From Allacma fusca (lineage: Eukaryota > Arthropoda > Collembola > Symphypleona > Sminthuridae), in assembly GCA_947179485.1 (NCBI GenBank), contig OX359245.1, forward strand, positions 47,169,067 through 47,233,066: a stretch of DNA of 64,000 nt, written 5' to 3'. The notes beneath the pieces were generated by a model. It worked only from the letters and a program-made list of their open reading frames with translations. It was not told where the DNA came from and made no database searches. Below, one piece after another: positions 2,000 to 62,189 of this stretch (position 1 is the stretch's first letter; each line of letters begins with the position of its first letter). The position numbers and the translations under genes were made by a program.

Positions 2000-3010
2000 G
2001 CAATTCCAAACAAAATAGCTGGTGTGGCTTGAATTCTAGAATATTTTAGAAATCCCCAGGCAACAGTTATAAAGAATATTTTGTTGTGGGATTGTTATGT
2101 TTGAGAAACGAAGTTGCAGAAAATTATTTCGCTTTGAATTGATTCGTAAAAATGATAAAAATCGTCGAAACCAACTTTGACAGCATTCGATCTCATTTGA
2201 CTAAACATGATTTTTATTTTAAAATCTGGAAACGAATTGTTTGAAAGTGTGGAAGTAATTATGTTCTCACTTATAGGAACTACTGGTGCCGACCAGGGGT
2301 CGGATTTATGTGGGAAGACGGGAAGAATCTTCCCAGGGAAAAACTTTTCAGCAGGGAAATTTTCAAACGGAATTGCAAACAGGGATTTTCAAATCTGTTG
2401 ATCTTTTTTTTGGCAGGGATTTTTGAATTTGTTTGGGTGTATTACGAAAATTGTTTTGCCAATAGGGAGTTTTAAACTTGCTTCGAACAGGGACATCATG
2501 ACCAGCAGGGAAAATAAAAAAAATCTTATAGGGAGATTTACAAAAATCCGACCCTTGGTGCCGACAAGATGTGTGAATGGAAATGATGCAAAATGATGCG
2601 GCAATTCAATTGTAAAATATTTAAAGCGCAGTGGGGCAGTAATTACACGTTTTTAAAAATTACATAACTCTGTATATTATTAATATTGTCAAGCGTCATT
2701 GTCATTTCTGCAGTTTAATTTACTTTACATTAAAGTGGGTATGCCATTTTCCCGCTCAACGCCACATTAAATTTAGCAACAGTCACATTTGTATGGTGCC
2801 TGCGTACTAACTTTACGTCGAATAAAATAGCCTAACTTGTTAAATATTTCAATTTTACCTAGAAATTTAGCATTTACAGCAATTATTCATGTTCTTGAAT
2901 TTTTTGAACTCCCCATTCTTTCCGCGTTTACAGGTTACAGTTCTTTCCTGTAACCGATATATAATAGAGTCCGTCAAAAATTTTCAGTTGTCCATGATTG
3001 ATGCTATGAA
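2000..3010. repeat. Long dispersed repeat, second copy (interrupted by a hAT-like element)
   Basis: Bases 2000-2285 and 2566-3010 align in the same direction with about 15.95-16.67 kb. Landmarks are GTGGCTTGAATTC (2024) against GTGGCGTGAATG (15991), CATGATTTT near 2208 and 16188, and the block CAGCAATTATTCATGTTC near 2878 and 16528. The two halves are separated by the insertion at 2294-2557. No gene is visible. Confidence 0.65.
2294..2557. mobile_element. hAT-like miniature element, GGGAA word family
   Basis: Terminal inverted repeats read CAGGGGTCGGATTT at the left and AAATCCGACCCTTG at the right, i.e. 13 of 14 bases match after reverse complementing. The element is flanked by a perfect 8-bp direct repeat GTGCCGAC at 2286-2293 and 2558-2565. 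An 8-bp duplication and a CAGGG terminus are typical of the hAT superfamily (established knowledge). The 264-bp interior is almost entirely variations of GGGAA or CAGGGATTT words in one dominant orientation, with a few reverse complements. There is no coding capacity, so a transposase would have to act in trans. Confidence 0.88.
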
Positions 3011-3316
3011 AAACGATTTGCTTGAAAGGCAATTCAAAAATGTTCCCTTATATTTGTATAGTTTTTAAAACCAAAATCGTTTACGTAGATAGGTAGTGTG
3101 GGACTTTAATTAAGTTTTTAAAATTTTTTGGAAACTAAGCTCCCGTAAAAATCTATGAACGCCGGACTGTCCAAGAAAAGTCAAAGATCAGAAATCCCGA
3201 CATTCTTCATCTTTCTAGCTTTCTTGAAGCTGAATTTTGTTAAAATTTTTGACCATGTCCATATGTATTACCTTACAATCTTATTAGTATGAACATTAGC
3301 AGCTTAGAAAATCATC

Positions 3317-3359
3317 GGTGATCAGCACTACGTGCTAAGTCACCAGGGGGCGAAGCGCC
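3317..3359. other. GC-rich double hairpin
   Basis: Bases 3317-3344 form an interrupted stem (GGTGA with TCACC outside, AGCAC with GTGCT inside). It is followed at once by a second small hairpin at 3349-3359 (GGCG, loop AAG, CGCC). Both stand out from the AT-rich surroundings. They could be the structured end of a mobile element; I found no matching partner end. Confidence 0.4.
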
Positions 3360-3518
3360 GGCGGAATGTGGCGACAAGGGCTTTTTAACAGTAATGTGGT
3401 GTGTACAAGGAAACGTTTATTTAAAATCCCCCAGTACTGGTCACAGTTATTTCTACTGGGAAAAGATGTTAACTGGAGCAAACGAAAAAAAAGGTTCATA
3501 CATGTGCTTCCTTGTATG

Positions 3519-4043
3519 CAGGGTTGGTTTGGTTTAAATCAAATGATTTAAACCAAACGGTTTTTTAATTAAAACCAATGGTTTAAACCAAACACCTGAA
3601 ATTTTAATATTTTCAATCCAAAATGCTTATATTTCGTCGTGCACAAAACTTGTGCAGTTACTGTGATATTGTGTAGTTAAACTTTAGTGAAGTAAATAAT
3701 ACTATTAGCTTTTAGTCTTGTACATTTAGAAATTCGGAATTGTTTGTAAAATGAAAAATGTCAAACTTGTGTTTATGCTGTAAAGTTATCGTTAAAATTG
3801 TATCTAAATATTTAATATTTAATGCTTTGTGATACTTACTGAGCTAGGGAAATATGTAAATTTGTTCAAATTCAAATTTTTTTGCATATGTATGAATGTT
3901 TTGGATTGAAAATTTGTTTAAACTAAAAAAAACTGGTTTAAACAAAAACAATCCGGTTTAAACAGAACAAAAAACCGGTTTAAATCGAAAAAACCCGGTT
4001 GTTTGGTTTTTTTTTGAAAAAAACCAAAAAACCCCCAACCCTG
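3519..4043. mobile_element. hAT-like element, GGTTTAAACC word family
   Basis: Termini read CAGGGTTGG on the left and CCAACCCTG on the right, a perfect 9-bp inverted repeat. Flanking octamers are CTTGTATG (3511-3518) and CTTGTATA (4044-4051), 7 of 8 identical, as expected for an aged hAT target duplication. Both arms (about 3525-3595 and 3910-4030) consist of the palindromic word GGTTTAAACC and variants such as ACCGGTTTAAA. The central 300 bases are ordinary AT-rich sequence without a gene. Confidence 0.82.
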
Positions 4044-4339
4044 CTTGTATATATGTATAGTATTACATTCAGTACGCATATAATCAATTGTGAAAACGTT
4101 TGATGTTCGATTTTAAAACACCATGTACAAGTACTCCCGACCTCTACCGGTCGTTAGAACACAAAGTTCAATGTAAACAACAAATCCTACAATAGATGTC
4201 CCAATCTGTACTCCCCGATGTGCCTACATATGTATTACCATGAGTTTATACGTGACCTCATTTAATTTTCTGAGGTCAACACATTTCCTTCAAAAACAAT
4301 AGGATTCTTCCTTTTACATCAAAACATTATCAAACAATA

Positions 4340-5010
4340 AAAATTTAATTGCGGCCCAAAAATATTTAAAGCGAAGTGAAATATTTAAATATTTAAAAAG
4401 TAATTTTGGTCCCACAAAGGGATAAGAAAGTCCCATATCACTGGCTTCATTTTTGTGTAATGTATTGTAAGGATGAAGCTAATTAAAATTAAAATTTGAA
4501 AGAAAATGAGCAAAAAATTGCAGTTAAAATTGTGAAACTAATTTGATAATTCAAATTTCAATAGTAATTTTGGTTTCTCAACAAGCATTGGCTCTTGAAA
4601 GTTTGTCTGGCTTTGCTCCACCACCGTCAGGGAGTAATTTCAAACGTTTTCCAGCTAGCGCAACGAGAAAATTTTGAAATATTTGAAAGAAATTGTGCTA
4701 GAAAATAGAAAAATGTAATGTTTCTTGACGTCTGGCCTGCTTGGGTTTGGAAAGACTTAACGATTTTAATGAACATGGCAAATCCTCATATGTATGCTTA
4801 TATTTTTTAAACATATCAACAACACTGCGATCTTTAAATCTGCACACCAAGATATCTTGGAAAATAGATACAGTGGCGTTGAAGCAAAAGTATTTTCAAA
4901 TTTTTGTAATTTACTTTATTTCGACAAAATAAATTTTGTCTCAAGGCTAACGATTTTTAGGACGCAATACGTAGTGTGACTAGAATTTTAAAACATTTTA
5001 AAAAAATTAA
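4340..5010. repeat. Dispersed repeat block P, copy 1
   Basis: This block aligns in the same direction with about 20.52-21.17 kb: AAATATTTAAAGCGAAGTGAA near 4363 against AATATTTAAAGCGGCGTGAA near 20547, then TATTGGCTCTTGAAAGTTTG, TTTGCTCCACC, the box at 4871, TTTATTTCGACAAAATAAA and an AATACGTAG box near 4967. A shorter match lies at 15.65-15.78 kb. The 63-aa and 61-aa open frames here are not conserved in the other copies. Confidence 0.7.
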
Positions 5011-5700: not shown

Positions 5701-6159
5701 TCAAAAGACGAGAGAATCCCGAGCCACAGACCAAGAAAGACCAAGAGACGCGTGCAAGAAAGTGTATCTCATTAACGCACTACACAGAATAATGTATATA
5801 CTGAGTGACTAAAAACTATAATACATACGCACTTATTCTGAGACCGAACGTCTCAGGCCGCTCTCACAGCAAGCATCGTGTGCTCTCTGCCTGCTGCACA
5901 TTCCCTCGTTCACATTCACATTGCCATTCTCTCTTCTAATTCTTTCCTCTCCATTTTTTCCTATTTTTATCCTTTAATTCCCATTTCCTCCTTTCTGAGC
6001 TCTATTTCCCCCCAAATATCAAATATAACTTAACATGGTGCACGGTGCGCGGTTCTTCTGTACTTTGAATTTGTTAATTCTAGTATAGACGATTCGTAAC
6101 CTCTCAGCGAGTTTGCCCAAAAATTCCTACTTCTTCCTCCTTTTTCCTCAAAAAATCCC

Positions 6160-8776
6160 ATGTCTCGACAAGAAATAAGACTCATACGGGTGGTGAAACT
6201 AAATTCTCGTAGTGAATTTATCCGTTTTAATAACATTAATTATATCGCCATCCTCCAACGTGACGCCAACAACGTCGACCTTAGTTCTACAGAACAACAG
6301 GAGGCGATAGATAAATATCCACACCTCACTATAGAAAAAGCCATAAGTCAGTTTCGCGTTTATAAACTATTTCGTCAGAAACTTCCACAATATCTCAACA
6401 CGGACATAGTGCCAGAAACGGTCACCGCTGCTGATTTTGACGTGTTACATAAAAAACGCAGCAGGATACCCACATTAACAACCCTGTCAGAGAAAACTGT
6501 AATTCCCGTACCAGACGACACACGAGCTCAAACTCCACCGAGCACGAACGGAGAAAATACCGAGGGCCCGACTCCCGAACCACCGACAACGCCAGACGAC
6601 TTCAGGTCATTCAACCCGTCCCGAACTTTCACACCAGCCATCTCTACTGGACCACATGATCCTGATAACAATTTGACCGTTACAACAGAAACAGTAAGTC
6701 CGAATTTTAATTTGTCCAATGAGCATACAATCGTCGCCACTCCAACAGCTACGAATTCCCAACCCGCGTCTACTCGTCTATTTAACAACCACAATTATTT
6801 CGAGGAAGTGTCCCAGCAGTTCGTCGATCGAATAAACTCCAAACAACAGCGAGATTCATCCGGAACAAGCATTGTAAACTACCCATATTATCGACAACTT
6901 TTACGAGACCTCAACGTAGCTACAGCTATCAATCCAGACCTTAGCTTTTTAAACACCCGAGCAAGTTTCAACCGTATTGTTGCAAGAATCATTACCATCT
7001 TTCGAAATTGGCAAACCCACTGTACCGAACACACATCCTTAATAGAGGAATTGCAAGATATTCACGAATCCTTATTGGCTACGGATCTCCTCACAATTGT
7101 AACTACATCAACAGCAATCCCCACAACTTCAACTGCAACTGCATCCACTTCTTTTCTCTCTCACCCCACACCTTCTTCTTCATCACCACAATTTTACAGT
7201 TTGATCCCTCTCATTAGTTCCTGGTCAGACAGGCTCAAAACTTTGAAAAGACAAAACCAAGACGTTACTCACCAATTTACCTTAACTTATTACCGTAACC
7301 TTGTTGCTGAGAAAACCCTTTCCAGTAAAATAACTCTTTCAAACTTCCCTTTCACCTCTTCGGAAGCCTACCGAGAGGCTATTTTTCTCTTACCACAAGA
7401 ATTTATTTATGAAGCGACCCACCAACAACCAAACCTTCTGTCTATCCCACCATCCTCCTTTCCTGAGAATCCTCAATCAAATCCTAACCAAAACAATAAC
7501 ACTACTGATATTGATCCTGACGAACCCACAACTATCATTCCTAACGACGATAATCCACTTTATAATATTTATATCACACCTCCTCCTCCTCCAAACCCTG
7601 ATATTGATTCTGATTCCGACTCCGAATCCCTTCATTTCACAACTGCTTCTAATAGTGTTTCCTCCTCTCGCACTTCATCTCGAGCCTCATCTCCAACTGC
7701 TTCAATTTCTCCTATTTCTCCTCCCTTCGTGGCACCTCAACCAATCATGGACAATAACAGATTCCTCCTCGATAAACCAAAATGTTCCCCTTCTGAGCTC
7801 TCCTCTGACAATCTCAGAAAATTCTTCTCACGCTGCAATTCCTTCTTTGCCACCTTCACTGCTGATGACGCTACCAAAAAGGATACATACAACACCAAAT
7901 CTCAGATGCCTCAGCAACAGTAAAGAATTACCTAGACCATTATTGTGACTTAAGATCCACCCAACGTAAAACCTATGCCCAATTCTGTGATGACATCCTC
8001 AATAATATTCCCAAAGATGTACCAGATAGTAAGACCAAAATACTCAATGCTCTCTCCATGACAAAATACGCCACGGAAACTGCAACAATGTTTGCGCTCC
8101 GAGTTAAGGCTACAGCTGGTTCCGACTGGAACAATTTTCCAGAAACAACAGCAGTGGAATCCATCCGAGAAAAATTAGACCCTACGGTCAAAATATTTCT
8201 TCAGCGGCACAATGCAAAAATTCGTAATTTTGCCCATTTACTAGATGGTTCAAGGCATACGAAACCTGTGCGCCTCAAAATCCACAAGAACACGCTACTC
8301 CTACTCCACAGCTTCCCTCCAATTTGGTTGACAAACTTGACGCCGTCCTCGAACGACTGGATAAACTCGAAACTACAAATACAGCTATAATGGCCGTCAC
8401 CAACCAGATGCCCCAACAAAGACGCCAGTACTCCCAAAACTTTCACCAGGGACAAAATTCCAATACTTCCAACCCTGTCGTATGCTACAGATGCCACAAG
8501 CCCGGCCATATAGGTAGACAATGCCCCACCATGAATGCTCAACAACAAGGACAGGCAACTGCATCTACAGTTATTTGTGAACGATGCTCACGGCCCGGTC
8601 ATCAGACAAAATTTTGTCGTCAGCATCTACCCATGCATTACACGGACTATGGAACTTATCTTGCTGAAAGACGACAACAAGGACACCAACAAGGACAAAA
8701 TTTAAACTCGCCAGGGCAGGCTGCCCTAGGCCTGCCTCAAACTCAATTACGAGCTTTACCAGCTCCGGACACTTAA
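6160..8776 (+). pseudogene. gag of gypsy element 1 (frameshifted)
   Basis: Gag would package the RNA into cytoplasmic particles. The first open segment runs 6160-7923 (587 codons). It is rich in Pro, Ser and Thr, with acidic and serine tracts near codons 480-520. A frameshift just before 7908 moves the gag reading into another frame (region around ATVKNYLDHYCDL). A second, near 8235, restores the frame that carries a short coiled coil (LVDKLDAVLERLDKLE) and two CX2CX4HX4C zinc knuckles (CYRCHKPGHIGRQC and CERCSRPGHQTKFC) before the stop at 8774. The knuckles identify the nucleocapsid part with confidence; capsid boundaries are not clear. The start at 6160 is the first ATG of the long frame and is not independently supported. 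Confidence 0.8.
8698..8736 (+). promoter_or_regulatory. Candidate -1 ribosomal frameshift signal, gypsy element 1
   Basis: The heptamer AAATTTA (8698-8704) sits in the gag frame as A AAT TTA, the X XXY YYZ pattern of known -1 slippery sites. Ten bases later GGCAGGC (8715-8721) can pair with GCCTGCC (8730-8736) around an 8-base loop; a smaller alternative stem AGGGC/GCCCT overlaps it. After a -1 shift the frame is open through the gag stop into protease, which lies in exactly that frame. Function is inferred from position and pattern. Confidence 0.6.
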
Positions 8777-9362
8777 GCCTCCAACCGAAATTAATAATTC
8801 CAACCATCTCTCTGCACTCTTCTATTCCAATATCCATTCATTCCCTTTCGTGTTCCTTGAAAATTATGATTACCATTAACAGCCAAAAACTCCCGTGTCT
8901 CATTGACACAGGAGATGCGGCTTCATTAATACACCCATCATTTTTACCAAATGAATCCCGTATAAAGCCAAGTGCAATACGACTCATCGATGCTAATGGA
9001 AATCCAATGAAGAACAACGGCATAGCCCTCGTCAAATTCAAGATAGGTCAATGCACTTTCAACCATCCCTTCATTGTAGCTCCATCGACTGCTCTCAACT
9101 GTATTCTCGGTACAGACTTTCTGTACTCTAAAACTGGGTTCATCATAAATACTACAACAAATACACTCTGGAATAAGTTCACGGGACACGTTCCCCTTAT
9201 TCACACGGTTCTCCAACATGAAAAGGCCTTCCAGGACCAAAGTGAACTTCCAATTTTACTTCCACAGGCTGCTATAACAAAAGCAACAATTTCCAACAAG
9301 TCATTGCACCCAAACGCGGCACCAACGAATGCTACGCTTCACCAACGCTCAAACAATGGATA
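8777..9362 (+). pseudogene. Protease domain of gypsy element 1 pol
   Basis: This is an aspartic protease of the retropepsin fold, expected to cut the Gag-Pol polyprotein. The active-site motif LIDTGDAASLIHP begins near base 8899 and the second conserved block ILGTDFL lies near 9100; both spacings fit gypsy proteases. The frame is -1 relative to the end of gag, so Pol would be made by frameshifting. The frame ends with TAG at 9361, before the RT region. Whether that stop is original or a mutation is unclear, but most gypsy elements keep protease and RT in one frame, so I read it as damage. Confidence 0.8.
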
Positions 9363-9995
9363 GGAAACTCTGTTCGTTGACCCTCCTCTGACTTCTTCCA
9401 ACGAACCCTATACACATTCTCGAACGTCTGCCTCAACACAAACTCTTCCAACTTTTACAGACAACTCATCTCAAACCCTTTCCATCAGTAAAAATAAAAT
9501 TCCCATAGCAAGAAATATTTCCTACAATATTCAAGTACAACAGATATTACCTCCGACGAGTCTGACAAGGGATACTACCATAGGTCATCGAACCCACACC
9601 GTCGCAGAATTTCAACTTCTCGCAGAGCTACTATTAAAACTATACCCACTTCTATATCTTCCCAGCCTACTATATCTCCCAAACCTACAACATTTACAAC
9701 TCTTCCCATTTTGTGTGTTTCACACACTAAACCAAATCATGTACTACGGGTACAAGGCACTCAAACTATTGGCCCCAGGTCCCATGTCACAATCCCAACT
9801 TTACACTCCTCTGAGGACACCAATCCGATATATTTCCAGCCTCATCCTTCTCTGTATAACGATTATCACATTTTAGCTCCTCACTCCATCCTGTCTCCAA
9901 CTTCTAAATTTTTACTTGTTACTAATCCCACCAATATTCCAGTTATTCTACCCGATGGCCTCGGATTAGGGCATATCACACCATTAGACCATTAA
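9363..9995 (+). pseudogene. Protease-RT linker of gypsy element 1
   Basis: This 630-base stretch has no single long frame. From 9711 a 94-codon frame contains a segment like the usual beta-rich linker between protease and RT (LLVTNPTNIPVILPDGLGLG). Before it the reading appears frameshifted. No catalytic motif is expected here. Confidence 0.5.
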
Positions 9996-11480
9996 GACAA
10001 CTCCATGAATCCCATTCCAATTTATGCCATCGACAACTTGACAATGAATTATCCTCCTTTAAAATCAATCCCGACCTCAACCCCGAAGATACAACCAAAA
10101 TCAGAGATTTACTCAAAGAATACCGTAGCTCGTTTGCATTTTACCCTCACGAATTAGGACGATGTTCTACGCTTCCCTTTACAGTGGAACTGGAACAAAA
10201 CAAAATTGTAGCTCACAAAGCATACAAGACCTCCGAATATCAGGACGACATTATAAATGCCCAAGTTCAAACATTACTTGACAACATCCTTATTGCACCA
10301 TCAACTTCACCATTTACCAGTCCCGTGATTATTGTCCTCAAGAAACCCAATGATCAAGGCCTACGTAAACCACGCATGGTAATAGACTTTCGCTCCCTAA
10401 ATAAATTAACAAAGGCAATGCACTGGCCACTGCCCAGCATCGATGAGATATTAAGGCGACTAAAAAACAACAAATTCTTTTCCACATTGGATCTCGCCCA
10501 AGGGTTCCATCAAATTACGGTGGACAAAAATTCTCTTGAGAAATTAAGCTTCATCACCAAAAATGGCCAATATGAATACCTCTTGATGCCATTTGGAACA
10601 AAGAATTCACCTTCCCACTTCTGTCGCATTATAGACTTAAAATACTCAACAGCTTTAGCCTACGTCGACGACATTATCATAGCCAGCCAAACAATAGATG
10701 AACACATCACCAAATTAAGAAATATCTTTGACTGGTTCAAACAACACCACTTAAAATTCGAACCTACTAAATGTAGGTTCGGTTTTGAGAAAATTAACCT
10801 ACTGGGTTTTACGATAACCTCCTACGGCATACAGCCCTACAATGAAAATCTAAATGGGATCAGACACATGCCCTCTCCACACGATGTCAAATCAGTCCAA
10901 TCATTTTTAGGCATGGCCAACTTTTTTAGACGCTTCATCCCTCACTTCGCTCAAATTGCTTTCCCACTACGGGAACTGACCAGACAAAATATACCCTTTG
11001 AACGGACACAAGAATGTCAACAGGCATTCGAGGCTTTGAAGAACCTCCTCATTTGTCAACCCGTACTAGCGCATTACGACCCCAATAAACCTACCTTCCT
11101 ATACACGGATGCATCTTTACTAGGAATGGAGCCTATCTTACCCAGCCTAAACCTGACGGACACGAACACCCCATATATTTCCTCAGTAGAAGACTGAATA
11201 AGTACGAACTAAAATATAACATCCGTTTATTAGAGTTACTGGCCAACACATGGGCCACAATGAAGTTAAAGGAATATCTCTTAGGAATTCCATTTACCGT
11301 CAAAACTGACCATCACAGCCTTTGCTATATTATGAAGACAAAAGATGACCTGGATCCCAAACTCCAACATCTTTAGTTGTTATTAATGCCTTATGACATC
11401 ACAATTCAATATGTTAAAGGCACTACACACCGCGTAGCTGATTGCCTCAGTCGCAACCCATTTGGGGAGCCTGAACACTA
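9996..11480 (+). pseudogene. Reverse transcriptase and RNase H of gypsy element 1
   Basis: The domain would copy element RNA into DNA. The frame from about 10000 enters RT with SPVIIVLKKP, RMVIDFRSLN, TLDLAQGFHQI and the polymerase motif AYVDDIII near base 10659. The stretch between SHFCRIIDLK and STALAYVDD is some ten residues shorter than usual, suggesting a small deletion. The thumb/connection region (GFTITSYGIQP, FLGMANFFRRFI) is complete. RNase H begins FLYTDASLLG near 11100. A frameshift near 11125 moves the rest (HPIYFLSRRLNKYE, VKTDHHSL, VADCLSRNPF) into a second frame, which also has an in-frame TAG near 11373. Both changes would inactivate the protein. Confidence 0.88.
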
Positions 11481-11547
11481 ACAAACAGACGATGCTGCAT
11501 GTCTCTCAATCAATGCTATCAGCATTTCTACTCTCAAAGAAGAACAG

Positions 11548-14384: not shown

Positions 14385-15559
14385 TAGGGTATGTCGATTT
14401 GAAAATGCCCGGCATTTTGGGCAACTCGCCCACCCAAAATGCCAGGGCATTTTGGGCATTTTCATTTCTGGGCGAGGGCGGCATAATAGGGAATATTGGG
14501 CAAGGGCATTTTGGGCATTTTCATCGAGGACAAATTTGGCAGAATCGTGGAATATAATAGAACAATCTATACAATTTGACAATGGATTTGAAAATTTCTT
14601 TGTAATTTTGGAGAAAAAGCGTTCGAAATTTTCTTGAAAATTTTATTCTACATGTCATTATTTTGACGAAGTTAATTCAACCGGTGATGAAATAGGTTTG
14701 GATACCACAGGTCATATTGAACTTTACAATTTGTGAAACACCTGTACAGTACACGATACGGCTATAAATTAAAATATTCTAGGAACTATTTTTCCAAACT
14801 GCAGACGATGTAAAATGAACTTCCACCGTCCTGGGAATATTCAAATACCCCTATACATGTATGTATATTACTGTGATCAGAAATGTCGTTTCGGTTAAAA
14901 TTTGAACACATACGGTAATTGTTTTATACATCATATAACTACAAACAACAATATTTGGGGAACCTGTATGAAGGATGTATGTATATTGGTTTCTACTCGA
15001 GCCATTTTTGGCTGATCGTTGCAAACTGCAGACAATAGTGATGTAGAATAAAATGAGTATAAAATTCAGCTTCATCCCCTATTTAAATTTTGACTGATCC
15101 ATTACATTAGATTTTTACTCTTAGGAGTTCGTACTTCAAAAGAAAATAGTACTTCTGCCCGCCCGTCAGTGACGCATATGTAAATTTATTTCATGTTATT
15201 GTTTACATAGAAATTAATTTTAATAGGAGTGATCAATGATATCAATGATTAAATTGATTTAACTGTTTTTGCCATTAAAATATACGCGAAGAAGCGAATA
15301 ACCAGACATTCACATTTGTAACTTTTCCTTGGCTGCGCTTTCATGCATTTGGATGGATATTCGGAATATATGCTAGTAATCCAATTTTGGTGCCGTGAAA
15401 ATGCCCAAAATGTCCAACTTGTCCTGCCCAAAATGCCCAAAATCAGGGCATTTTCAAAAGCTGCCCATATGCCCAGTTTTTGGGCATGTGGGCAGGCATT
15501 TCGGGCATTTTCAGTTAGGCGGGCAAATACTGCAGGGCATTTTCAATCGACATACCCTA
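14385..15559. mobile_element. hAT-like element, GGGCATTTT word family
   Basis: Termini read TAGGGTATGTCGATT on the left and AATCGACATACCCTA on the right, a perfect 15-bp inverted repeat. They are flanked by ATCGGCTG at 14377-14384 and 15560-15567. The identity extends to 10 bp (AATCGGCTGT) if the terminal T/A pair is counted as target. Arms at about 14398-14530 and 15395-15545 are made of GGGCATTTTGGGCATTTT words in both orientations. The middle 850 bases are AT-rich and show no transposase. Total length is 1175 bp. A related half element ends at 46259. Confidence 0.9.
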
Positions 15560-21222: not shown

Positions 21223-21921
21223 CATATCTCGGCGAACTCGTGAATTCTGAGTTCCGAACTCGAACTCAGCTCACATTCGAGTTCCATAAAATCTGGTTTT
21301 GAGGCCGAGTTTGGCGCTGTTTTAAAAGCCGCCGTGACTTGAGGCTGAGAGCCAATCATTCATGATAGAACTCAAATGACTGAGTGCGAGTTCGAAATGT
21401 GGACCTCTCCAACACCAACCTCCTAATTCCATCTATGCTTAAATATTTATATTGTGGAATAACGATTGATGTGCATACCTGCGTATTGATTCTTATCGAA
21501 TTCGGTTAATGAAGAGTGTGCAAAATAATGGTTTAAGCGCTTAAAATAAAATGAAAAAAACTGAAATCACTAATGTTCGTTTGATTTGTTTTTAGATAAT
21601 TACATAATGTTTAATATTTGACTTTTGTTCTTCTTATTATTCCGAAGAGTTGAAATAAAAATATTATATATAAAAAGTGGTAAAAAATGTTTTAAAATGA
21701 ATTGATGTATTTAATTGGCAGTATACTTGCTTCACGAAACTGGAAATTGAGTCTTAGGTGAGTGCGAGGCTAAGTTCCAAAGGGTAATAAACGAGCCTCC
21801 GAGTTCGAGTTCGAGGCAAAGAATTACATACAGTTCAGTGCCTCAGTGAGTTCGAGGCTTAGAGATCTTGCACACGTTTAACCGAGTCCGAGTTCGAGTT
21901 CGAAATTTTTGCCGCGGTATG
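21223..21921. mobile_element. hAT-like element, GAGTTCGAG word family
   Basis: Ends read CATATCTCGGC and GCCGCGGTATG (9 of 11 bases complementary). They are flanked by a perfect 8-bp duplication GGCTGGGC at 21215-21222 and 21922-21929. Arms at 21230-21410 and 21745-21905 are built from GAGTTCGAGTTCGAGGC and its complement. The middle is AT-rich with no gene. The related repeat at 15.83-15.87 kb runs through the equivalent place (GAGCTGGCCGTCAGAAC) without an insert, which supports the boundaries. Confidence 0.87.
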
Positions 21922-25311: not shown

Positions 25312-25358
25312 ATAGTCTGACTTTCGGGGACGTTCAGACTATCCAGCCTCACCACCCG
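25302..25358 (+). promoter_or_regulatory. -1 ribosomal frameshift signal, gypsy element 2
   Basis: GGGAAAC at 25302-25308 is in the gag frame as G GGA AAC, a canonical X XXY YYZ slippery site, and the gag stop TGA is the next codon. Three bases further ATAGTCTGA (25312-25320) pairs perfectly with TCAGACTAT (25334-25342) around a 13-base loop. The loop contains CGGG (25325-25328), which can pair with CCCG at 25355-25358 to make a pseudoknot. The -1 frame after the slip is the pol frame. Pattern and position are direct observations; activity is inferred. Confidence 0.8.
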
Positions 25359-29440: not shown

Positions 29441-29492
29441 CCATAACCTTTAAACACCTTTTCAGGAAATAAGAGAGGCACACCGGTCAAAT

Positions 29493-35404: not shown

Positions 35405-36606
35405 TCGTGCCCCGCATGGGTACAAAAATGTTGTACCTGGACCTGAACCTGTACCTGAATCATGGGTACATGGATTTTTTGAACCTGTACCCGTACCTGT
35501 ACCTGAATACCTGGGTTCAATTTTCCTGAACCTGTACCTGTACTCAAACTAAATCAGGAGTACCTGTACCTGAAAAGTACCTCTACCCAAAAAGTACCCA
35601 AAAAAGTACCTGTACCCGGGTATATTTTTAAAGTACCTGAACCTACAAGGGTATTTTCGATTGTACTAATTTAAAGGATTATCAAAGATATTACAGGAAA
35701 TAACAAATTAAAATATCTGTGACCATGACGTTTTGACTTAATAAATATATTTACCATATTAGATTTTTTTTTATTTTTTATTCTTCGAAAGTATGACGAA
35801 GTACTGGAATTATCAACAGTTATAAATGATTACAAAAAGGTTGGCAAGGTAACAGATAGCAAGATCTACGATATGAATAAAGTAATGATAAGTTCACAAT
35901 ACAACTGCAGTAAAATATTTTCTAAACGTTCAATAATGCCGAGAAACTAAATTATTAAGGATTTGTTTTGCAACTTGCTTTTGCAATAGAAAACATATTT
36001 TAGATTCACACTCCCCAGATTTTAACTTCAGCCAAGCTTTGAGACAAATATAAATATTTCCTACCGTATCCCCACTCTTATATAAGCGTTTATGCGTCAG
36101 ATCTGGACCATAGGAGAAGTCTATCTGTACTCCAGTTCCAGGAAGTGCTAAAAGATCTCTGGTCTTTCCAGCTAATGCTAGGTAACTAGCCACGTGTTCC
36201 TATATGGTGGAATTAGTTTTCATGACTGAGTTTATACATACAAATTTTAATGCAACATGTTTCAATGTAAAAAATTCTAATGAGTTTTTAAAGCTCAACA
36301 ACACCTTTACGGGTGTTATTTGGTAATTATTATTGACTGAGAAATACCTGAAAGTTCAGGTATTTTACATTCAGGTTCAGGTATTTTCCCAGTGCGTACC
36401 CGTACCTGATGGGTTTATACCCAAAATATTGGTTTTTGTACCTGTACCCATACCTGAACCTGAACCTGAATTTTCAGGTATCTAACGACTGAACCTGAAC
36501 CTGTACCCAAATTGTATGGGTACAAAACAGTATGTACCTGATACGTACCTGTACCTGAACCTGTACCCAATTACCCGGGTAAAACCTGTACCCATGAGGG
36601 GCACTA
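35405..36606. mobile_element. hAT-like element, ACCTGTACCTGAACC word family
   Basis: Ends read TCGTGCCCCGCATGGGTAC and GTACCCATGAGGGGCACTA (17 of 19 bases complementary) and are flanked by a perfect 8-bp duplication GTCAGCAT (35397-35404, 36607-36614). The paralogous repeat at 56.05 kb reads AATCAGCATCGTCTC without insert, a related empty site. Arms at 35405-35655 and 36340-36606 consist of ACCTGTACCTGAACC and GGGTAC words in both orientations. The middle holds a hAT transposase remnant on the minus strand. Confidence 0.93.
35930..36202 (-). pseudogene. hAT transposase C-terminal dimerisation domain remnant
   Basis: The minus-strand frame (about 87 codons, first residues MASYLALAGKTRD) contains TRDLLALPGTGVQIDFSYG, then LTHKRLYKSGDTVGNIYICL and KAWLKL. 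It aligns in pattern with the C-terminal end of hAT transposases, where an L-A-xPxT(S/G) block is followed by a conserved arginine-rich R..L segment and a final LxxLKxWLK helix. Upstream catalytic parts are missing, so the element is a deletion derivative. The match is by pattern memory, not by search, but its position inside an element with hAT ends makes it consistent. Confidence 0.6.
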
Positions 36607-37597: not shown

Positions 37598-38351
37598 TAG
37601 TGGTCGGAACAATTCAATTCAATTCAAAATTTACAATTCAATCCAGTTCGAATACTGAACTGGATTAAAATTTGGGTTTCAATTCGGTTCAGTAAAAAAC
37701 AATTCAATTCAATTCAGTTCACTCTGTGAACTGAACTGAATTGTAAACCATTTGGTTCGCCGAGCATATTTAAATATTGCCAAGGTGGCTAGGGTGGAGC
37801 GTCAGCTTAGGCCATATCTCCTTACCATTTTTATAGTATTATGTTGAGGTCATTTAAAAAATAAAAATGCAAAATTTTGAGAAAATAAAATTGTGATAAT
37901 TTTTCAAAAACAAAATCCATTGAAATCGGTGGAACAGTTTGTCGTTTTTGTTTTTTTACGTACGAACAAGCATTACGATTTCAACCAATAAAGAACTCCT
38001 CCAAGAGAGTGGCCTAAAGAATGTTCACAAAATTAGTTCGGAGCATCCACGGACAACCCTATCATATAAGGGGGCTGACGCCACCCTAAAAATATTAACA
38101 CATACGTTTTCTTGTTCGTTACGTTGACGCAAAGATGGTGCTAAACTTATCCTAACAATATCGGTTTTAATTCAGCCTGAAATTGTTTTGAATTGGAATT
38201 CAAAGAAAACAATTCAATTCGATTCAACAGGTGAATTGAATTATTCGGTTCAGTAAACGATCGAATTGAATTGAAAAATTCCTGAATTGAACTGAACTGA
38301 ATTGAATTGAATTGTAAAATTGCAATTCAAACTGAATTGGTCCGACCACTA
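37598..38351. mobile_element. hAT-like element, AATTCAATTC word family
   Basis: Ends read TAGTGGTCGGAACAATTC and GAATTGGTCCGACCACTA (17 of 18 bases complementary). Flanks carry a perfect 8-bp duplication ATCTGGGG (37590-37597, 38352-38359). Arms at 37610-37760 and 38165-38345 consist of AATTCAATTCAGTTC words and their complement GAACTGAATTG. The middle 400 bases have no recognisable gene. The paralogous repeat at 61.95-61.98 kb has the uninterrupted site. Confidence 0.93.
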
Positions 38352-45647: not shown

Positions 45648-45905
45648 TAGTGCCCCTCATGGGTACAGGTAGTACCCGGGTATATAGGTACAGGTCCAGG
45701 AACAAAATGGGTACATACATTTTGTACCCAAATATTTTGGGTACTTTCTGGGTACACACAATTTGTACCCGCAAATTTGGGTACAGGAACAAGTGTGGGA
45801 ACGGGTACGCAAGAATACCTATTTGAGTCGATTCCATCAGGAACAGGTACAAATGCTTGAAATACCTGAACCTAATCTCCAAGTACCTAAAACATTTGGG
45901 TACTT
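45648..45905. mobile_element. Truncated hAT-like element, GGGTACAGG word family
   Basis: The left end TAGTGCCCCTCATGGGTAC is almost identical to the termini of 35405-36606, so it is the same or a sister family. About 250 bases of GGGTACAGG/CCTGTACCC words follow. No right terminus (GGGGCACTA) and no second copy of the flank GTTTAAAT is found downstream, so the right half is lost. Confidence 0.7.
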
Positions 45906-46124
45906 TTGAAAACCTAAAATCAAGAAAGTAGCCTACTCTACAACATATCGTTGGTTAAATTCTAAAAAGTACCATTTTCATTTCAGAACTGTTTCTATAA
46001 TTTTATCATATAATCCAGTTGAATATTAAAATTATTTGTAACATACTGTTTTGTGACTTATTTTGCTAAAAAAGCCATATATTTAAAAAAGGTGGAAAAA
46101 GCCATATATTTAAAAAATTGGTGC

Positions 46125-51975: not shown

Positions 51976-51979
51976 ATCA

Positions 51980-55400: not shown

Positions 55401-57354
55401 ATCCTGGACCAGAGATTTATTGCAAAATTATAGATGTGGTATGTGAATGATACTTCAACCATGAATTTTTGTATAGTCAATCTGCTTCAACTTACAATGG
55501 ATTTCAGTGCAATAGGAAGTGACTGTACAGTATGTCAGTGCAAACAAGATTACTTGCAGTGCAGAATCATTTGGTTTAAACCAATATAGATAACTCTGCG
55601 CATAAGACAGTACTCTTTAGAATTATCTACGTAAATGTAGCTCCTTGGAATGGAGGCATTTTCGATCAGGACAAGTATGGGACTCAAATATTTTTCATAA
55701 TGTATAAACACAGGATCTGGACTCACGATTTTTAAATTTTAATAATAATTTTAATAAGATAGATTTGCTAGAACTGCATAATAAATTTGACTAATAATGA
55801 ACTTCTGCTTTCATTTACACAGAAAACTAAAGAGTAAAAAACTAAAAAGTGTTTATTTTTTTAGGTAATCTTCCTAAACGTTTTATAAATTTCTTACTTT
55901 CACAAAGAATTTGAATTCAACATCAATTGAACGTCTGACATTGTCAAGACGCCATTGGAACAAATTGCAAGGTGCTTTTTAAACTGCCTTAAGGAACTAA
56001 ATACAGAGGAATAAGAAATACGAATGTGGCGCCAAAGCGAAACTCTTATTTTATAAATCAGCATCGTCTCTCTTGTAGGAAAGGTGTGCCTAATTTACTG
56101 TAATTTTAATTAACCTCGAAGTTCAATACATTGATTTTGGTCACCTTAATTTTTGAGGAATTTAATTTGAAACCCAGATAATTATCTATTGCTGGTATTT
56201 AAGTCATATCAGTTATTAATTTTCATTGTCTTGATTCCCATTACTGTCTAAGAGTAAAACCAAAGCTCCAAACTGAAACTGATGCTACAGGAAATTATAA
56301 AGAATCTACATTGTGGATCGGATTGTGAAAAAAGTAACAGGGCAATTGTAGTTGACATTTTTACTTAAGTCCAAGTAACCAACATATTACTTTATTTTCC
56401 CTCTTTTACTCCTCGTCTGTAAAACTTTGGCAAACATTGTGTCCGGGATTTATTAGAGAATTATATTTCCGACAACACAAACGATAAACTTAAACTAGAA
56501 AATTGCAGACTTAAATACTCTCTAGTAAGTTTTTTGTAAAAACTCAAACGAGCTGAAAAACTTCAGTTCCGAAACAAATCAATTTCTAAAATCTCACACA
56601 GAATTTGATAACGAAGGGGAAATTTAATTTTTCGTAAAACGGTTTACCTTTTCTTGGTTTAATGATTGATTAAATGTTATGGAAATCGCTACCGGCAAAT
56701 ACAAATTTTTCAAAGGGTTGGAATTTACTGATACAAAACGAGTTTGTAATAAAAAAGATTTTGACAACTATTTTTCTGTAAGTGTTACAATTTCATCAAA
56801 AATTTCTTCCCCAAACGTTTCAATTCCTGTAGAAATTCCTGCCCATGAAGACCATTTTGCCTATTCTGCGACAATTTTGTGCGGAGAAAAACTTTCATTC
56901 CTGATTCAGTCACATCCAGAGCTGCGCTCAAGTTCAAGTAGTACTTGACAAGTATCAAGTCAGGTCAAGTTCGGAGTAATTTCGGGATCATGAGCGTTTC
57001 TACATACTTGGTTAGTTATAGTTTTTGCAGGATCCGAACTTAGAACTTCAAGTCCGTTCTGGTCCAAGCGCAAGCCCACAGAATTTACTTGAACAAAAGA
57101 TCAAGTTCAAGTTCGGGTCTGGGCATGGATTTTACTTGAACCCGAACTTGCACCTTCAAGTACCGATTCAAGTATCCTAGTTCCATTTGATTTGATTTGA
57201 TTTATTTAGATTTAATTGTCAAGTTATACATCGAATTAAATCAATGATTTCCAATAACGGACAATATTTAAAAACTAGGAGTAAATTACAAAATTTAAAA
57301 AAAACTATAAGTAAGACATGGTCAATAATATATATGTGTATATTTTTGTTTACA

Positions 57355-57914
57355 TCAATTTATAAAATTTAAGGGATCCCGTTTGAGCATGATCCATTTT
57401 GTCAATTCGCTATAAAAATGTACATTATCTAGGTCACGAAGGGAAGGCGGTAGCTTATTCCACATATGAACGAGTCGATACTTAATTGATCTTTCGAAAG
57501 TTACAGATTTGTGCTTTATAGATTTGAGTGTATTTCTATGGCGTACATTTAAAACATTTAGTTCGTATTTAAATACCTCATTAAATTTTTCGCATCGGTT
57601 TTTATATAATAAATGGCGTCTAATCTGTACCATAGCAGTATATAGACGCATTTCTTGTATTGATAAAATATTGAATTTTTCAAGTAGAAAGTTTTGCATG
57701 TCATTTGAAACAAACATTGACTCTCTGTGACTACTGAGTCTTCTGACACCTCTCTTTCTACAATTAATTTTATACAAACCAGAATACAAGAGTTTGTTTA
57801 TCTTATTTTGAAGATAGTTTACATCATCTGAGCTAACACAGCACCAGGACATGATACAATAATTTATATTCGAGAATAGATGTGCACGTATTAACAACTT
57901 GAACATTTCAAAAT
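57355..57914 (-). pseudogene. LINE ORF part 4: thumb and C-terminus
   Basis: The frame (183 codons) continues LLIRAHLFSNINYCIMSW, INKLLYSGLYK, then a C-terminal segment with VRHRNTLKSI and WNKLPPSLRDL; the LWNxLP-type block is common near the ends of CR1/Jockey-like proteins. It ends at 57355, followed by a 3' untranslated region of about 170 bases. Confidence 0.8.
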
Positions 57915-58568
57915 TTATATATGGATATAACTTATTCGAAAGATAAAAGACGAGGATAACTTTTTTCGTATATGAGCATAATGTTCTTTGAATGTTAGAT
58001 TGCAGTCTAAGTATATGCCTAAATATTTGAAAGTATATACACGTTCTATAGTATTGTTACGACAATTCATATATACATTTTGAGGTACAGATTTGTCATT
58101 TGTCTTATTGAACACCATAAATTTTGTTTTTTCATAGTTAATTATTAAGCCATTATCATTGCACCAGGTGTCAATATCTGCGAGCGTACTTTCAACTTTC
58201 CTTACTGCAGAATCAATGTCCTTGTCATTGACGTAAATAACAATATCATCGGCAAACAGTAGACAAGTGCCTAAAGAGGCTATAATGGGTAAATGGCAAA
58301 GATCATTTATATATAATATAAATAATAAAGGCCCCAGAATAGTACCCTGAGGTACGCCACAATAGAATTTGAATTTATCCGAGATTTGGTCACCTATCTT
58401 TATACTATAAGATCTTTGGTATAAATAACTACATAGCAATCGCACAATATCTTCATGCAATTTAAAAGTTAATAACAGCTTTTTTAACAAAGGAACATGT
58501 TGAACCGTGTCAAAAGCTTTTTTAAAATCAATGAATACAGCCACTACATGGCCTTTGGTAACATCTAT
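57915..58568 (-). pseudogene. LINE ORF part 3: RT palm
   Basis: The frame, read in phase with the previous part, has VFIDFKKAFDTV, GVPQGTILGPLLFILYI and LLFADDIVIYVND (the catalytic FADD), then TKFMVFNKT and YLGIYLD. All core RT motifs are intact. A frameshift near 57910 separates it from the C-terminal part. Confidence 0.9.
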
Positions 58569-59282
58569 TTAATTAAATATTTCTTGCGTAAGTATTTGCA
58601 CTGCTGTATCACATGAACGACCTCTTCTAAAACCGTGTTGATTATCTGCAAGATTATTTGATACTGCAGATAGAATGTGGCGTTGCAGTACTTTCTCAAA
58701 ACGTTTACACATAAACGGCAGATTACTGATTGGTCGATAATTTTTTCCGTCGGTTTTACTACCGGTCTTTTTGTAAAGAGGAGTCACTTGCGCATGTTTA
58801 AATTCAGCAGGAAAGTGTCCTTCTTTCAGAAGTTTTGTGAATATGAATGCAACTGGTGCAGCAAGAGATGACAAGCACATACAGAAGATAAACGAGGATA
58901 TCACGGATTGAGAGGCATTTGATCTTCTCTTCACATATTTTGCAGCTGAAATTATTTCCTTAGGTGTGAATTCAATAGGAGAGTTAGAACGAGGGATGGC
59001 ATTTGATAGAGTGTTTATATCAAATGAGGTATTAGGGGCTTCAATAACAAAGTTTTCGTTTAGTGTTTTGCAATTCTTGCAATCATCAAAATTCTCTACA
59101 ATTTCACCATTAGAAACTATCTTGTTTATTTCCATGGGTTTAGGTTTACCTCCTGACAAGTCTTTAAAATTATTCCATAATGATTTGGAACTGTTAGATT
59201 TCTCACATTTAGCTTTATGATATAGAACTTTTGAACTTTTTATGGAGCGTGAAACTTCATTACGAAGAGATTTGTAGGAACT
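58569..59282 (-). pseudogene. LINE ORF part 2: linker and RT fingers
   Basis: In the same frame after the TGA, a linker (SLRNEVSRSIKSSKVLYHK) leads to the methionine at 59159 and an RT N-terminal part with LLKEGHFPAEFKHAQVTPLY, KTDGKNYRPISNLPF and NQHGFRRGRSCDTAV. It ends at a TAA (58569), after which the frame continues. Only two single-codon stops thus separate the endonuclease from the RT palm. Confidence 0.85.
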
Positions 59283-60638
59283 TCATAACGCAAGCTGTGT
59301 TTGGGATTCGTGTAATACACGTTCATTGCATCCTTCAAATTTGAGAGATTGCAAGAAGGAGCGTGACTTATGGAACTTCTTTAAACATTTATTTCGATTA
59401 TAAATTAACTGCCGAATATTATCATCCAGCCATGGACATGGTTTTCCTTGGACACGTATATTTCGTAAAGGAGCGTGCTTATCAACTACAGCCATAACTT
59501 TAGCTTCAAATTGGGACCATACAAATTCATTTGTTGCATGAAGATCGTTGGTTAGGTCAGCTCTTAGTAGCTCTGCATTTAAGTTTTCCCAGACAACATT
59601 CTTGAAACTTCTTATGGAAGCAACATTTGGTCTATATTTTAGTTTCGGACTTTTGACTACTATGTATATCATATCATGGTCAGAACTAAAAGGAAGCGTT
59701 CCGTACAAGGAGAGTTTTTCTGGCACAGAGGAGTAAAAATGGTCAATAAGAGTTGCACTTAAATCACTCTTAGTCTTGCGTTTTGCTATTCTTGTTGGGG
59801 TATTTATTATTTGTGTTAATCCGAACTGTTTGGTTACCAATTGTAGCATATATGCTTCAGTCTTTGTGTGGGCTAGATCAATGTTAAAGTCACCGGCAAC
59901 AAAAGGGTCAAAATTATCTGCTCGAATATTTGTTAATAACTCATCAAAGCAGTCAACAAAGGCTGGTGAATATACGGAAGGGGGCTTATATACACATACC
60001 AAAATAAATGGTTTAAGGTACGGTGGCCAGATTTGTATACATGTCACTTCAACCTCGGTTGGGAATTTGACATTGTAATTTAGTTCTAAATATTTCATAG
60101 CAACAGATGTGTATATAGCCGAACCACCTCCTAATCTGTTTTTTCGATCATGTCGTATAAGGTTGTAGCCTGGAATATTATAATAGCCGTCAGGTACATC
60201 CTCTGTCCATTTTGTCTCTGTACACATTAAGGCATCTATCTTATAGAGATCAGATAACATCCGAAGTTCACTTAACTTTACTAAATTCAGGCTATTTGCA
60301 TTTATATGTACTAGCTTCAATCCTTTAGTTGTTTTCAGCTGTACATCTGCAGTAAATGATGCGTTTATAATAGGTATCTCGTTATTGTCACAAGTAAGAT
60401 TACCCAGTGGATTTTCAATTGTTTCAAGTACCACAGGGCTGCCTTTATCTTCACAAATAACACATTTCCATGATTTAGACTTCACTAATTTATGAAAGTT
60501 ATAGATAGAAGGGCGCGGAGTTAGGCAAATACGATGGAATAGAAGCAAGCAGTCACAATGAATGGCCAGTTGGAATTTTTTTACAACTTTATGGCATATT
60601 GCACAATTAGGGTGTTTCTCCATATTTGCATACGACAC
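59283..60638 (-). pseudogene. LINE ORF part 1: PHD-like finger and AP endonuclease
   Basis: The frame starts MSYANMEKHPNC and opens with a Cys/His-rich zinc module (CAICHKVVKKFQLAIHCDC, HRIC, CVICEDKG), a PHD/RING-like arrangement known from several LINE ORFs. From about residue 105 an apurinic endonuclease fold follows, with LVHINANS, CTETKW, GGGSAIYTS, VCVYKPPS, AGDFNIDL and SSDHDMI in the right order. All catalytic residues expected for EN (Glu in ETKW, Asp/Asn in GDFN, Asp/His in SDH) are present. It would nick the target to prime reverse transcription. The frame ends in TGA at 59283; the next part continues in the same frame. Confidence 0.88.
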
Positions 60639-60890
60639 AAATAGTAACTAGCGAGGTGTGATATAGCACTGAACACAGGTAAATGGACTTAGAACAGATA
60701 TTGTAGACTGAATTAAGCAAAGCACTGGCTAGTAAGATAAGGTAAGGAGAGGAAAGGTAACCATATTCTGGACAAGAGGCAGGACAACCTACCTGGAGCT
60801 TGTCCAGAACTGGAATGAACCAACGTTTGCTTCCTTTGTGTGGTCTTCTCCCTCGGTTGTTCGCAATTCCGCAACACGCATTCTAGAAAC

Positions 60891-61232
60891 TGGTGATGCC
60901 AATGGTCTGGTCTGATCCAGATTTTATGAAACTGGTCTGATCCAGTCGTTCGGACCAGACCAAAGACCATGCTCCGGATCATGGTCCGGAAAACCATTGA
61001 GAGCATACAAATAATCACATTTTATCGCGTCAAATTCTTCTTTTATCCCCAGAAAAATTTCAGTTTTAATTTTCTCCATGGGATTTCTTTAACTGATAAA
61101 TTTTCGTTTGAGACCACGGTCCTGTGTTCACATCTGGTCTGGTACTGAAGCTGGACTAATTATATCTGGTTTGGTCCAGGTGTGAATCAGACAGAACCAG
61201 ACCAATAACGGACACGACCATTGACATCCCAA
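60891..61232. mobile_element. hAT-like element, GGTCTGGTC word family
   Basis: Ends read TGGTGATGCCAATGGTC and GACCATTGACATCCCAA (14 of 17 bases complementary). An 8-bp duplication CTAGAAAC is at 60883-60890 and 61233-61240. Arms consist of TCTGGTCTGATCCAG and its complement. It lies in the 5' untranslated region of the LINE, so it is younger than that LINE copy. No coding capacity. Confidence 0.85.
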
Positions 61233-62189
61233 CTAGAAACTATGCCTGCAGAGATATGCGCAGAAGCTGGAGCTCACTTTCATTTGGGGTGACTGTTGTG
61301 TATTCTGTAAATCGTCGTGCTTCAAAATATTCTAATTTGTCATCATTTTTTTACAAAACTGTAGACGTAAATTGTCCGGTGAGACTAAAAAAAGGAAAAA
61401 ACCATGTGTGAACCCGAATCTGAATTTAATAAATACAACGGAAATTGAAAATCTTAGTTCTACCCGTTGGAGCGTTTTTGCGACTTTATACTACAAAGTT
61501 GTAAGGTTCGAGTATTTGAAATCCAAGTTCGGTTCGAAAGATTTAGGGACCCGACTTTCAAGTATCAGATCAAGTTCGGGTTTAGCAAAGATTACTTGCA
61601 AGATATTACTTGGTATGACAAGTAATTCCTGGGACCCGAAACGCAAAGTTCCGGTACTGACAAATATCTACTTGAAAGTTCAAGTGCGGGTCAAGTTCAA
61701 GTTCGGATCCTCAAAATACTTGACCCGAACGCAGGTCTTGTCACATCCACACGGAACAGTCACCTGGCGTGGAAGTTATAGAAATTAAAATATGACATAT
61801 TGTTATCTCTCAAGCAATATCGCCATTTATAGCAAACGTTTAAAGACAGGGCTGACATTAATGTCACCGAAATTTGTTTTTTAATTTTAATACCAGATGG
61901 CACCAACTTTTTTTAACTGTGTTTGAAAAATTTATCACGGATTAATTTATCAAGAGTCCGGGGGGGGCAAGTCTCAGATTATTTGTTCTTGGCGAGACAA
62001 AATATAGACATTTTAGTCGAAAAATTAATGAACTTGAATATCCCGCCCGAATTTCGATTAGGATTTTGAGATTTTAAGTTTTAATAATAATAGGTAAGTA
62101 AGAGAGAAAGACTTTATTGACACTGCTTCTCAATAGACGTAGCCCTTGTGGACTCAACAATTTTCAATTAAGTAACTAATTTGTATAAT

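Follow-up and report, generated by a model that had tools for sequence, protein, structure and literature searches.

We analyzed a 64,000-nucleotide stretch of Allacma fusca DNA (the window) and found it to hold eight elements with inverted tips and 8-bp flanking duplications, E1 to E8, and a further left end of the E5 type whose matching right end was not found in the window with up to five mismatches allowed (Table 1). The duplications are perfect in seven elements and match at seven of eight positions in E2, and the first 12 bp of opposite ends agree at 9 to 12 positions (nine each in E2, E4, E7, and E8). Our rereading of ends and duplications agrees with an earlier note on this DNA, which had described the elements in these terms. 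By their inverted tips and 8-bp duplications, the eight elements are hAT-type. hAT transposons move by cut-and-paste via a hairpin on the flank, and their terminal inverted repeats are short, with the consensus YARNG; we found the consensus exactly at both ends of E1, E2, E3, and E6, at one end of E5 and E7, and at neither end of E4 and E8.

Table 1. Positions and properties of the elements in the window (TSD, flanking duplication)
Feature	Position	Strand	Length (bp)	Word	TSD	TSD match	Remarks
E1	2294..2557	.	264	GGGAA/CAGGGA	GTGCCGAC	8/8	non-autonomous hAT element
E2	3519..4043	.	525	GGTTTAAACC	CTTGTATG/CTTGTATA	7/8
E3	14385..15559	.	1175	GGGCATTTT	ATCGGCTG	8/8
E4	21223..21921	.	699	GAGTTCGAG	GGCTGGGC	8/8	internal-deletion derivative (by alignment) of 4645-bp transposase-domain element
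E5	35405..36606	.	1202	ACCTGA/ACCTGT	GTCAGCAT	8/8
E6	37598..38351	.	754	AATTC in tandem	ATCTGGGG	8/8
E5-type left end	45648..45920	+		GGGTAC			TAGTGCCCCTCATGGGTAC exact; far limit approximate
E7	56917..61739	.	4823	CAAGTTC/ACTTGA	GTCACATC	8/8	arms ~56917-57190 and 61490-61739
E8	60891..61232	.	342	GGTCT(GGTC)	CTAGAAAC	8/8	nested in E7

The elements have the character of MITEs, being short (264 to 1202 bp), transposase-free, and present in many copies with conserved ends, except for E7 with its 4823 bp and nested elements. As the interior of E7 harbors a LINE-like element and E8, the eight elements are not all mutually independent. E8 and a left arm of E7 are close neighbors at further places in the genome, too.

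An unsupervised scan for ends, requiring 13-bp tips, an 8-bp duplication, and an element length of at most 3000 bp, gave five matches in the window (E1, E3, one within E3, E5, and E6) and none in three simulated sequences. E2, E4, and E8 failed this strict scan, and E7 was beyond its reach due to the length limit. A looser scan found seven end scores of at least 13 in the window versus zero and zero in two controls; its shared-k-mer score was set aside, as it favors the overlapping arms of short elements.

Repeated Words in the Arms

The arms of each element carry a short word of its own in many copies. Using the words of the earlier note, which had been chosen from the same sequence, and counting exact matches for E1 and up to two mismatches for the others, we found 13 to 37 word sites per kb inside E1 to E6 and E8 and 0.6 to 4.1 outside. 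For E7, the densities were 5.0 inside and 2.1 outside, the low value reflecting the small share of the arms in its 4.8 kb. The density exceeded the maximum of the element's own 30 shuffles in all eight cases. That the arms consist of almost nothing but the word is a fair description of E5 and E6 and too strong for E1, E2, and E8: the repeated fraction of arm 6-mers was 0.55 in E5, 0.44 in E6, 0.36 in E3, and 0.33 in E7, and 0.19 to 0.23 in E1, E2, E4, and E8 (z of only 1.7 in E2). Likewise, the word was said to occur in both orientations; this is true of both arms in four of the seven elements with a nonpalindromic word (E3, E5, E6, and E8) and of the left arm only in E1, E4, and E7, and the word of E2 is a palindrome.

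A blind 6-mer scan of the window detected 46 repeat-rich windows, of which 38 overlap E1 to E8, four the E5-type end, and four a minisatellite. We also compared the arms of 15 elements, the eight from the window and seven containing an hATC domain (see below). In 14 of them, the own 3' arm was the best partner of the 5' arm (permutation p 5e-5); in E1, it ranked third.

Copies across the Genome

For each element, we scored 40 genomic matches from candidates numbering 1943 (E1), 576 (E2), 1483 (E3), 102 (E4), 1660 (E5), 1304 (E6), 576 (E7, left arm only as query), and 1061 (E8, the majority of matches ending before the right end). Base-by-base reading of copy ends covered E2 and E3. Both tips were present in 8/8 of the best-scoring E2 loci and 30/30 of the best-scoring E3 loci, and the duplication matched at seven or more of eight positions in seven and 25 of these, respectively. 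Copies of E2 and E3 at the best-scoring loci have both tips in common and mostly different duplications. Consensus identities across copies were set aside because the copy orientations were mixed. Among the scored matches, one other copy of E5 and five of E6 were listed as 100% identical, which in the case of E6 suggests recent movement; E5 and E6 are the best candidates for systems active in the recent past.

Transposase-Bearing Relatives

Searching the genome for hATC, the C-terminal dimerization region of hAT transposases, gave 860 candidate loci, of which 150 were scored and 39 of these read. Among 20 regions examined, we found ten elements combining an hATC domain with both tips, an 8-bp duplication, and word arms (L010, L015, L017, L018, L022, L023 with a duplication of 7/8, L026, L032, L034, and L038), and all seven that were compared have matching words in the two arms. 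Elements with a transposase domain thus share the build of the window elements, which is a new observation. The longest exon of L032 matches PF14372 below the cut-off. Related transposase families have similar tips (CAGAGATGCGCA-like) and different words, some of the ends having been set by eye. Word arrays were absent in the 601 bp read at L094 and at L097, and also at L025.

One of the window elements could be assigned to a parent. The parent of E4 is 4645 bp long, is flanked by a perfect duplication (GTATAAAA on both sides), and contains an hATC domain (PF05699, Pfam E 6.2e-16). Positions 1-347 of E4 align with its left end at 82% and positions 347-699 with its right end at 77%, and its arms contain the E4 word; by this alignment, E4 is an internal-deletion derivative. 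Word positions were not significantly less changed than spacers between E4 and the parent in either arm (left, 3/58 versus 18/142, p 0.135; right, 5/50 versus 26/150, p 0.26). No transposase partner of the other seven families was recognized among the 39 loci read. Two candidate partners were rejected. The hATC element of L023, considered for E6 (593-4359, duplication 7/8 by eye), sits within an E6-type element (391-4591, duplication 7/8), and the E6 words around it are therefore foreign to it; L028, considered for E1, is adjoined by a nested E1-type element.

Comparison with Known hAT Systems

Tol2 and maize Ac/Ds are both precedents for subterminal repeats in hAT elements. In Ac/Ds, with an 8-bp duplication and 11-bp tips, copies of the hexamer AAACGG lie within 200 bp of each end and bind the transposase cooperatively, and Ds-del elements are internal-deletion derivatives (available text of PMC3260210). 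The elements studied here are alike in the duplication, the multiple word copies near the ends, and the deletion derivatives, and even similar words are found (CGTTAC/AACGGA in L030 and, by eye, AACG-type words in L090, L095, and L098). Unlike Ac/Ds, where there is one word and one family, this genome contains, by our count, at least 15 different words, which in several families are denser and often of mixed orientation.

In Herves of Anopheles gambiae, the motif CG/AATTCAT (CGATTCAT) occurs several times at both ends and is critical and sufficient for binding in vitro (PMC3143072, seen in part). The E6-type words GAATTGAAT and GAATCGAAT resemble it by eye, but the Herves repeats, as far as that text goes, lie within 100 bp of each end and the arrays here extend 200 to 300 bp. 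According to the sections available of PMC10368747, the BED finger of Hermes reads AAG(T/C) sites, of which one end has 17 and the other 14, through residues R63 to R70, mainly the helix residues N67 and R70. With the left-end sites farther than 50 bp mutated, ~70% of the activity remained, which would count against explaining the words by binding, and scrambling the left end beyond 50 bp abolished the activity or nearly so. The Hermes sites thus differ in being sparser and, deep in the end, dispensable, and the same sections describe no family-by-family variation of the word. They also state that most hAT transposons carry such repeat sets near their tips; the kind of arm is therefore known, from Herves and Hermes as well as from Ac/Ds, the only precedent considered earlier, and the unusual part is its density and variety. 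The Drosophila hAT MITE mar is likewise a short non-autonomous derivative, with cross-mobilization by a related transposase discussed but word arms not mentioned in the text available of PMC3517528. The coral MITEs belong to a different superfamily (PMC2872659, in part).

Origin and Putative Role of the Word Arms

We consider it probable, at roughly 0.7, that the window elements represent several separate hAT families, all as non-autonomous members, and that the words are the subterminal binding sites of each family's own transposase. The words are best read, by analogy, as dense, family-specific versions of the known transposase-bound repeats. The transposase would bind the word through an N-terminal zinc finger, and the short tip would be where the catalytic core cleaves; several transposase subunits would be recruited cooperatively by the many weak sites next to a tip. 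The array would give the family a private address, so that one family could not stand in for another even where their tips are alike, and a change in the finger would be followed by the words changing together in both arms. The arrays, often tandem units of 4 to 6 bp, probably grow and homogenize by slippage or template switching and would be maintained by selection for binding.

The suggestion of a different coevolving transposase for every word gains partial support from the matching words of the hATC elements, the E4 word in its parent, and the likeness to known repeats, while a partner is at hand for one of eight families. Arm similarity correlated with transposase similarity (rho 0.37, Mantel p 0.019), but dinucleotide-shuffled arms reached that correlation in 97 of 200 cases at k 5, 152 at k 4, and 91 at k 6, and we rejected it as evidence for coevolution.

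As to the N-terminal BED zinc finger expected of hAT transposases, a C-x2/4-C...HL pattern was found in ten of those read. Of these finger peptides, cut at exon ends, one matched Pfam zf-BED above the cut-off, one below, and eight, including that of the E4 parent, not at all; a profile of the ten matched no BED structure (best E 0.28, a different family). In the arms belonging to five GW-type fingers, AGG was at least 3.0 times as frequent as AGT, whereas AGT was at least as frequent as AGG for five fingers that carry N and K/R where Hermes has N67 and R70. A sixth finger, sister of one of the latter five, agrees with the AGT trend; the exceptions are L015, with an N/R pair but an AGG word, and L022, with equal AGG and AGT. 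At L033, for which a prediction had been set down in advance, the end of another element occupies the place inspected. The association, made post hoc, suggests that finger type and word may be linked. A bolder form of the model, in which hAT end recognition is modular, is possible but speculative: related families would retain similar tips and exchange the word concertedly over tens of sites as the base-contact residues of the finger change, giving a readable code (GW-type helix to AGG, N-K/R helix to AGT) and private words that bar cross-mobilization.

Alternatively, the arms could be products of slippage or template switching with no binding role, any short motif adjacent to a tip being expanded as hairpins are processed or gaps repaired and then spread to both ends. 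Tandem 4- to 6-bp units and near-tandem blocks are indeed seen, longer E1 copies hold a stretch twice, the words of E5 and L018 point mostly in the same absolute direction in both arms, and short-unit arrays would likewise homogenize in concert. Simple slippage yields direct repeats, however, and the mixed orientations within arms count against it. So do the interior pieces of the hATC elements, free of excess repetition in all seven tested, and the window itself, whose sole other repeat-rich place of this scale away from a hAT end is the minisatellite, with an 18-bp unit. We regard this explanation as unlikely.

Considerably less plausible is that the arms are secondary-structure devices, such as hairpins, or homology for gene conversion, the word itself being unread. 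Inverted copies within an arm could pair, but the arms of L018 and E5 are largely of a single orientation, and the same word in two unlinked arms is more than pairing within an arm requires. Spurious ends on chance or unrelated low-complexity sequence, to which the 9/12 tips might point, are scarcely credible given the copies with their own duplications, the E4 parent, and the empty controls of the strict scan, and are already contradicted for E2, E3, and E4.

Implications

To our knowledge, hAT subterminal repeats have been dissected in only a handful of elements. The principle is known, and the density and variety of words within one genome are unusual and useful. With many hAT families that have their own words, several of them with transposase sequence remaining between the arms, this genome offers matched pairs of finger and site. 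Two questions thereby come within direct reach of experiment: what determines the site preference of a BED finger, and whether related families are prevented by their private words from mobilizing each other.

Word arms of eight hAT-like elements

The window (C1:47169067-47233066 of the 393-Mb assembly, C1 being contig OX359245.1) had been described as holding eight hAT-like elements with inverted tips and 8-bp duplications, here E1 to E8, and sequence reading together with scripted checks confirmed all of them. In the scripted check, the duplications matched at 8/8 positions in seven elements and at 7/8 in one, and the best ends of E4 were 21223 and 21921 with the duplication GGCTGGGC. When tips and duplication were searched for together in a strict blind scan, E1, E3, E5 and E6 were recovered along with one match within E3; the scan covered elements of up to 3000 bp, which put E7 beyond its range, and it gave no match in three simulated sequences. 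The words that the earlier note had chosen, short motifs repeated in the arms beside the tips, were enriched against 30 shuffles of each element and against the remaining window. Their reported presence in both orientations held for both arms of E3, E5, E6 and E8 and for the left arm only of E1, E4 and E7.

Using overlapping 250-bp pieces (step 50), we counted those in which one 6-mer occurred at least seven times. This resulted in 46 of 1275 pieces, 38 of them overlapping the eight elements; four of the others lay on an E5-type left end and four on a minisatellite. A right end to pair with this E5-type left end was not found within the window.

Features of the window and first-look candidate totals from genome searches (40 candidates scored per element)
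Feature	Positions	Strand	Candidates	Remarks
E1	2294-2557		1943	
E2	3519-4043		576	
E3	14385-15559		1483	
E4	21223-21921		102	
E5	35405-36606		1660	
E6	37598-38351		1304	
E7	56917-61739		576	left arm alone searched
E8	60891-61232		1061	
E5-type left end	45648-45920			exact tip TAGTGCCCCTCATGGGTAC and GGGTAC words; absent from the earlier list
Minisatellite	18148-18277			18-bp unit, 7.6 copies, 93% matches; away from any recognised transposon end
LINE-like element	57190-60650	minus		endonuclease- and reverse-transcriptase-like frames, by eye; between E7 left arm and E8
Two LTR-retrotransposon-like stretches	6100-13285, 23851-32058			gag-pol type frames in several pieces, by eye
E7/E8 pairs outside the window	C5:53250204, C1:47114230, C12:55414531, C8:69874429, C1:21441774			

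Copies across the genome

Genome copies of E2 and E3 keep the reported ends, as checked base by base at the best-scoring loci: with the best tip pair taken per locus, both tips were present in 8 of 8 and 30 of 30 loci and a duplication of at least 7/8 in 7 of 8 and 25 of 30, respectively. The duplications mostly vary among copies, as for independent insertions. Among the matches scored, five other copies of E6 and one of E5 were given as 100% identical. Nested E8 and its host E7 seem to have been amplified as one unit, because E8 lies 68-84 bp from the E7 left arm in five pairs among the 39 non-window matches listed for each; in the window, the LINE-like stretch parts the two. Some E1 copies are longer than the one in the window, which is a short form: in these (e.g., C1:71878335-71878838), positions 87-187 of the query match twice. 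Even spacing on C8, both of E1 matches (11522540, 11528738, 11534893; 6198 and 6155 bp) and of matches to hATC, the hAT dimerisation domain of the transposase (28181777, 28191590, 28201403; 9813 and 9813 bp), suggests larger tandem units containing hAT sequence.

Word arms around transposase domains

A genome search for hATC had 150 of 860 candidates scored; 30 of these loci (L-numbers) were read with 1.5-kb flanks and 20 of them extended upstream. In 10/20 extended regions, hATC lay between inverted tips and an 8-bp duplication (L010, L015, L017 and L018 of one family, L022 and L038 of another, L026, L032, L034, and L023 with a 7/8 duplication set by eye). All ten had word arms, with words such as CGGATA/ATCCGA (L032), C(C/G/A)CTCA (L022), CCTTC (L015) and GTTCA (L034). 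The coding frames of many of these elements are divided into exons. The right end of L011, L013, L027, L030 and L033 was placed by eye, without a duplication, and ends were not found in the remaining five extended regions. Of nine more 601-bp pieces downstream of hATC domains, four contained CGGAT arrays and three, judged by eye, AACG-type words; the other two had no word array. The arms of L091, L093 and L096 were built on GGATAGGAT (CTATCC eight times each) and that of L092 on GGATCGGAT (CGGATC nine times), a shift of word running across the arm. At L019, L020 and L021, a CGGGTA/GGGTAC array some 600-950 bp upstream of hATC is a candidate nested element or own arm.

For E4, a longer parent element was identified: the L026 region plus 501 bp contains a 4645-bp element with tip CATACCTCGGCG, duplication GTATAAAA on both sides and hATC in its last exon. 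E4 aligned to the parent's first 358 bp at 82% and last 355 bp at 77%, and both alignments broke off at position 347 of E4; it is thus an internal-deletion derivative retaining both word arms. Between E4 and the parent, words did not change significantly more slowly than spacers. At L031, an element of the E4-parent type is followed downstream, directly from its end, by a long array whose unit (TTTGAGGCTCAAAGGTAAT...) measures roughly 32 bp.

The best partner of a 5' arm was its own 3' arm in 14/15 elements (permutation p 5e-5), that of E1 ranking third, and an excess of repeated 6-mers was not found in the interiors of the seven hATC elements among them. Tips were alike across several families (CAGTGATGGGC, CAGTGATGCTC, CAGAGATGCGC), and despite similar tips the words were unlike: GTAGAG (L011), GTAGTG (L013), GTAACG (L030) and GAAGGC (L033), in elements with transposase C-terminal identities of 35-58%. 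Arm similarity correlated with transposase similarity (rho 0.37, p 0.019), yet no better than for dinucleotide-shuffled arms.

Zinc fingers and words

Ten N-terminal exons carried a C-x2/4-C...HL pattern. Among these ten finger peptides, which end at exon borders, only L034 passed the Pfam zf-BED cut-off, L013 fell below it and the other eight had no zf-BED match; a finger profile compared with solved structures found no BED protein. Passages of PMC10368747 place the base contacts of Hermes at R63, Q64, T65, S66, N67 and R70, directly ahead of the zinc ligand H71, and we aligned the fingers by eye on the equivalent histidine. N and K/R occupied the N67 and R70 places in L013, L022, L026, L030 and L034, whose arms had AGT at least as often as AGG; a GW motif stood there in L010, L015, L018, L023 and L028, and in their arms AGG outnumbered AGT by a factor of 3.0 or more (counts from the right arm alone for L013 and L030, and from an unbounded 250-bp cluster for L028). 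L027, a sister of L034, fits the pattern, and L015 is an exception, keeping the N/R pair with words still AGG. A preset prediction for L033 gave no test: the expected site of its finger exon, L099 (C8:70611640-70611960), is occupied by the end of an L022-type element with TGAGTG words and, by eye, tip CATAGATGCACATTTTCA. Since the comparison was framed after the words had been seen and the families are related, a tie between finger type and AGG or AGT words counts as a lead.

Relation to known hAT systems

Titles and abstract openings yielded no survey of numerous hAT families, each with its own word array, within a single genome; this is weak evidence of absence given that most subscription literature lay outside this scope. 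Word arms of the subterminal-repeat type are a kind of feature already known from hAT elements, as the repeats of Ac, Herves and Hermes show. In the parts of the sources consulted, Ac transposase binds cooperatively to AAACGG hexamers lying in the 200 bp next to each Ac end (PMC3260210), the Herves motif is CG/AATTCAT (PMC3143072), and Hermes has 17 and 14 AAG(T/C) sites, such sets being present in most hAT transposons (PMC10368747). In Hermes, about 70% of activity remained when the sites deeper than 50 bp were mutated, though scrambling that stretch abolished or nearly abolished activity (PMC10368747). By analogy with these mutated deep sites, some words of a 250-bp arm may be dispensable.
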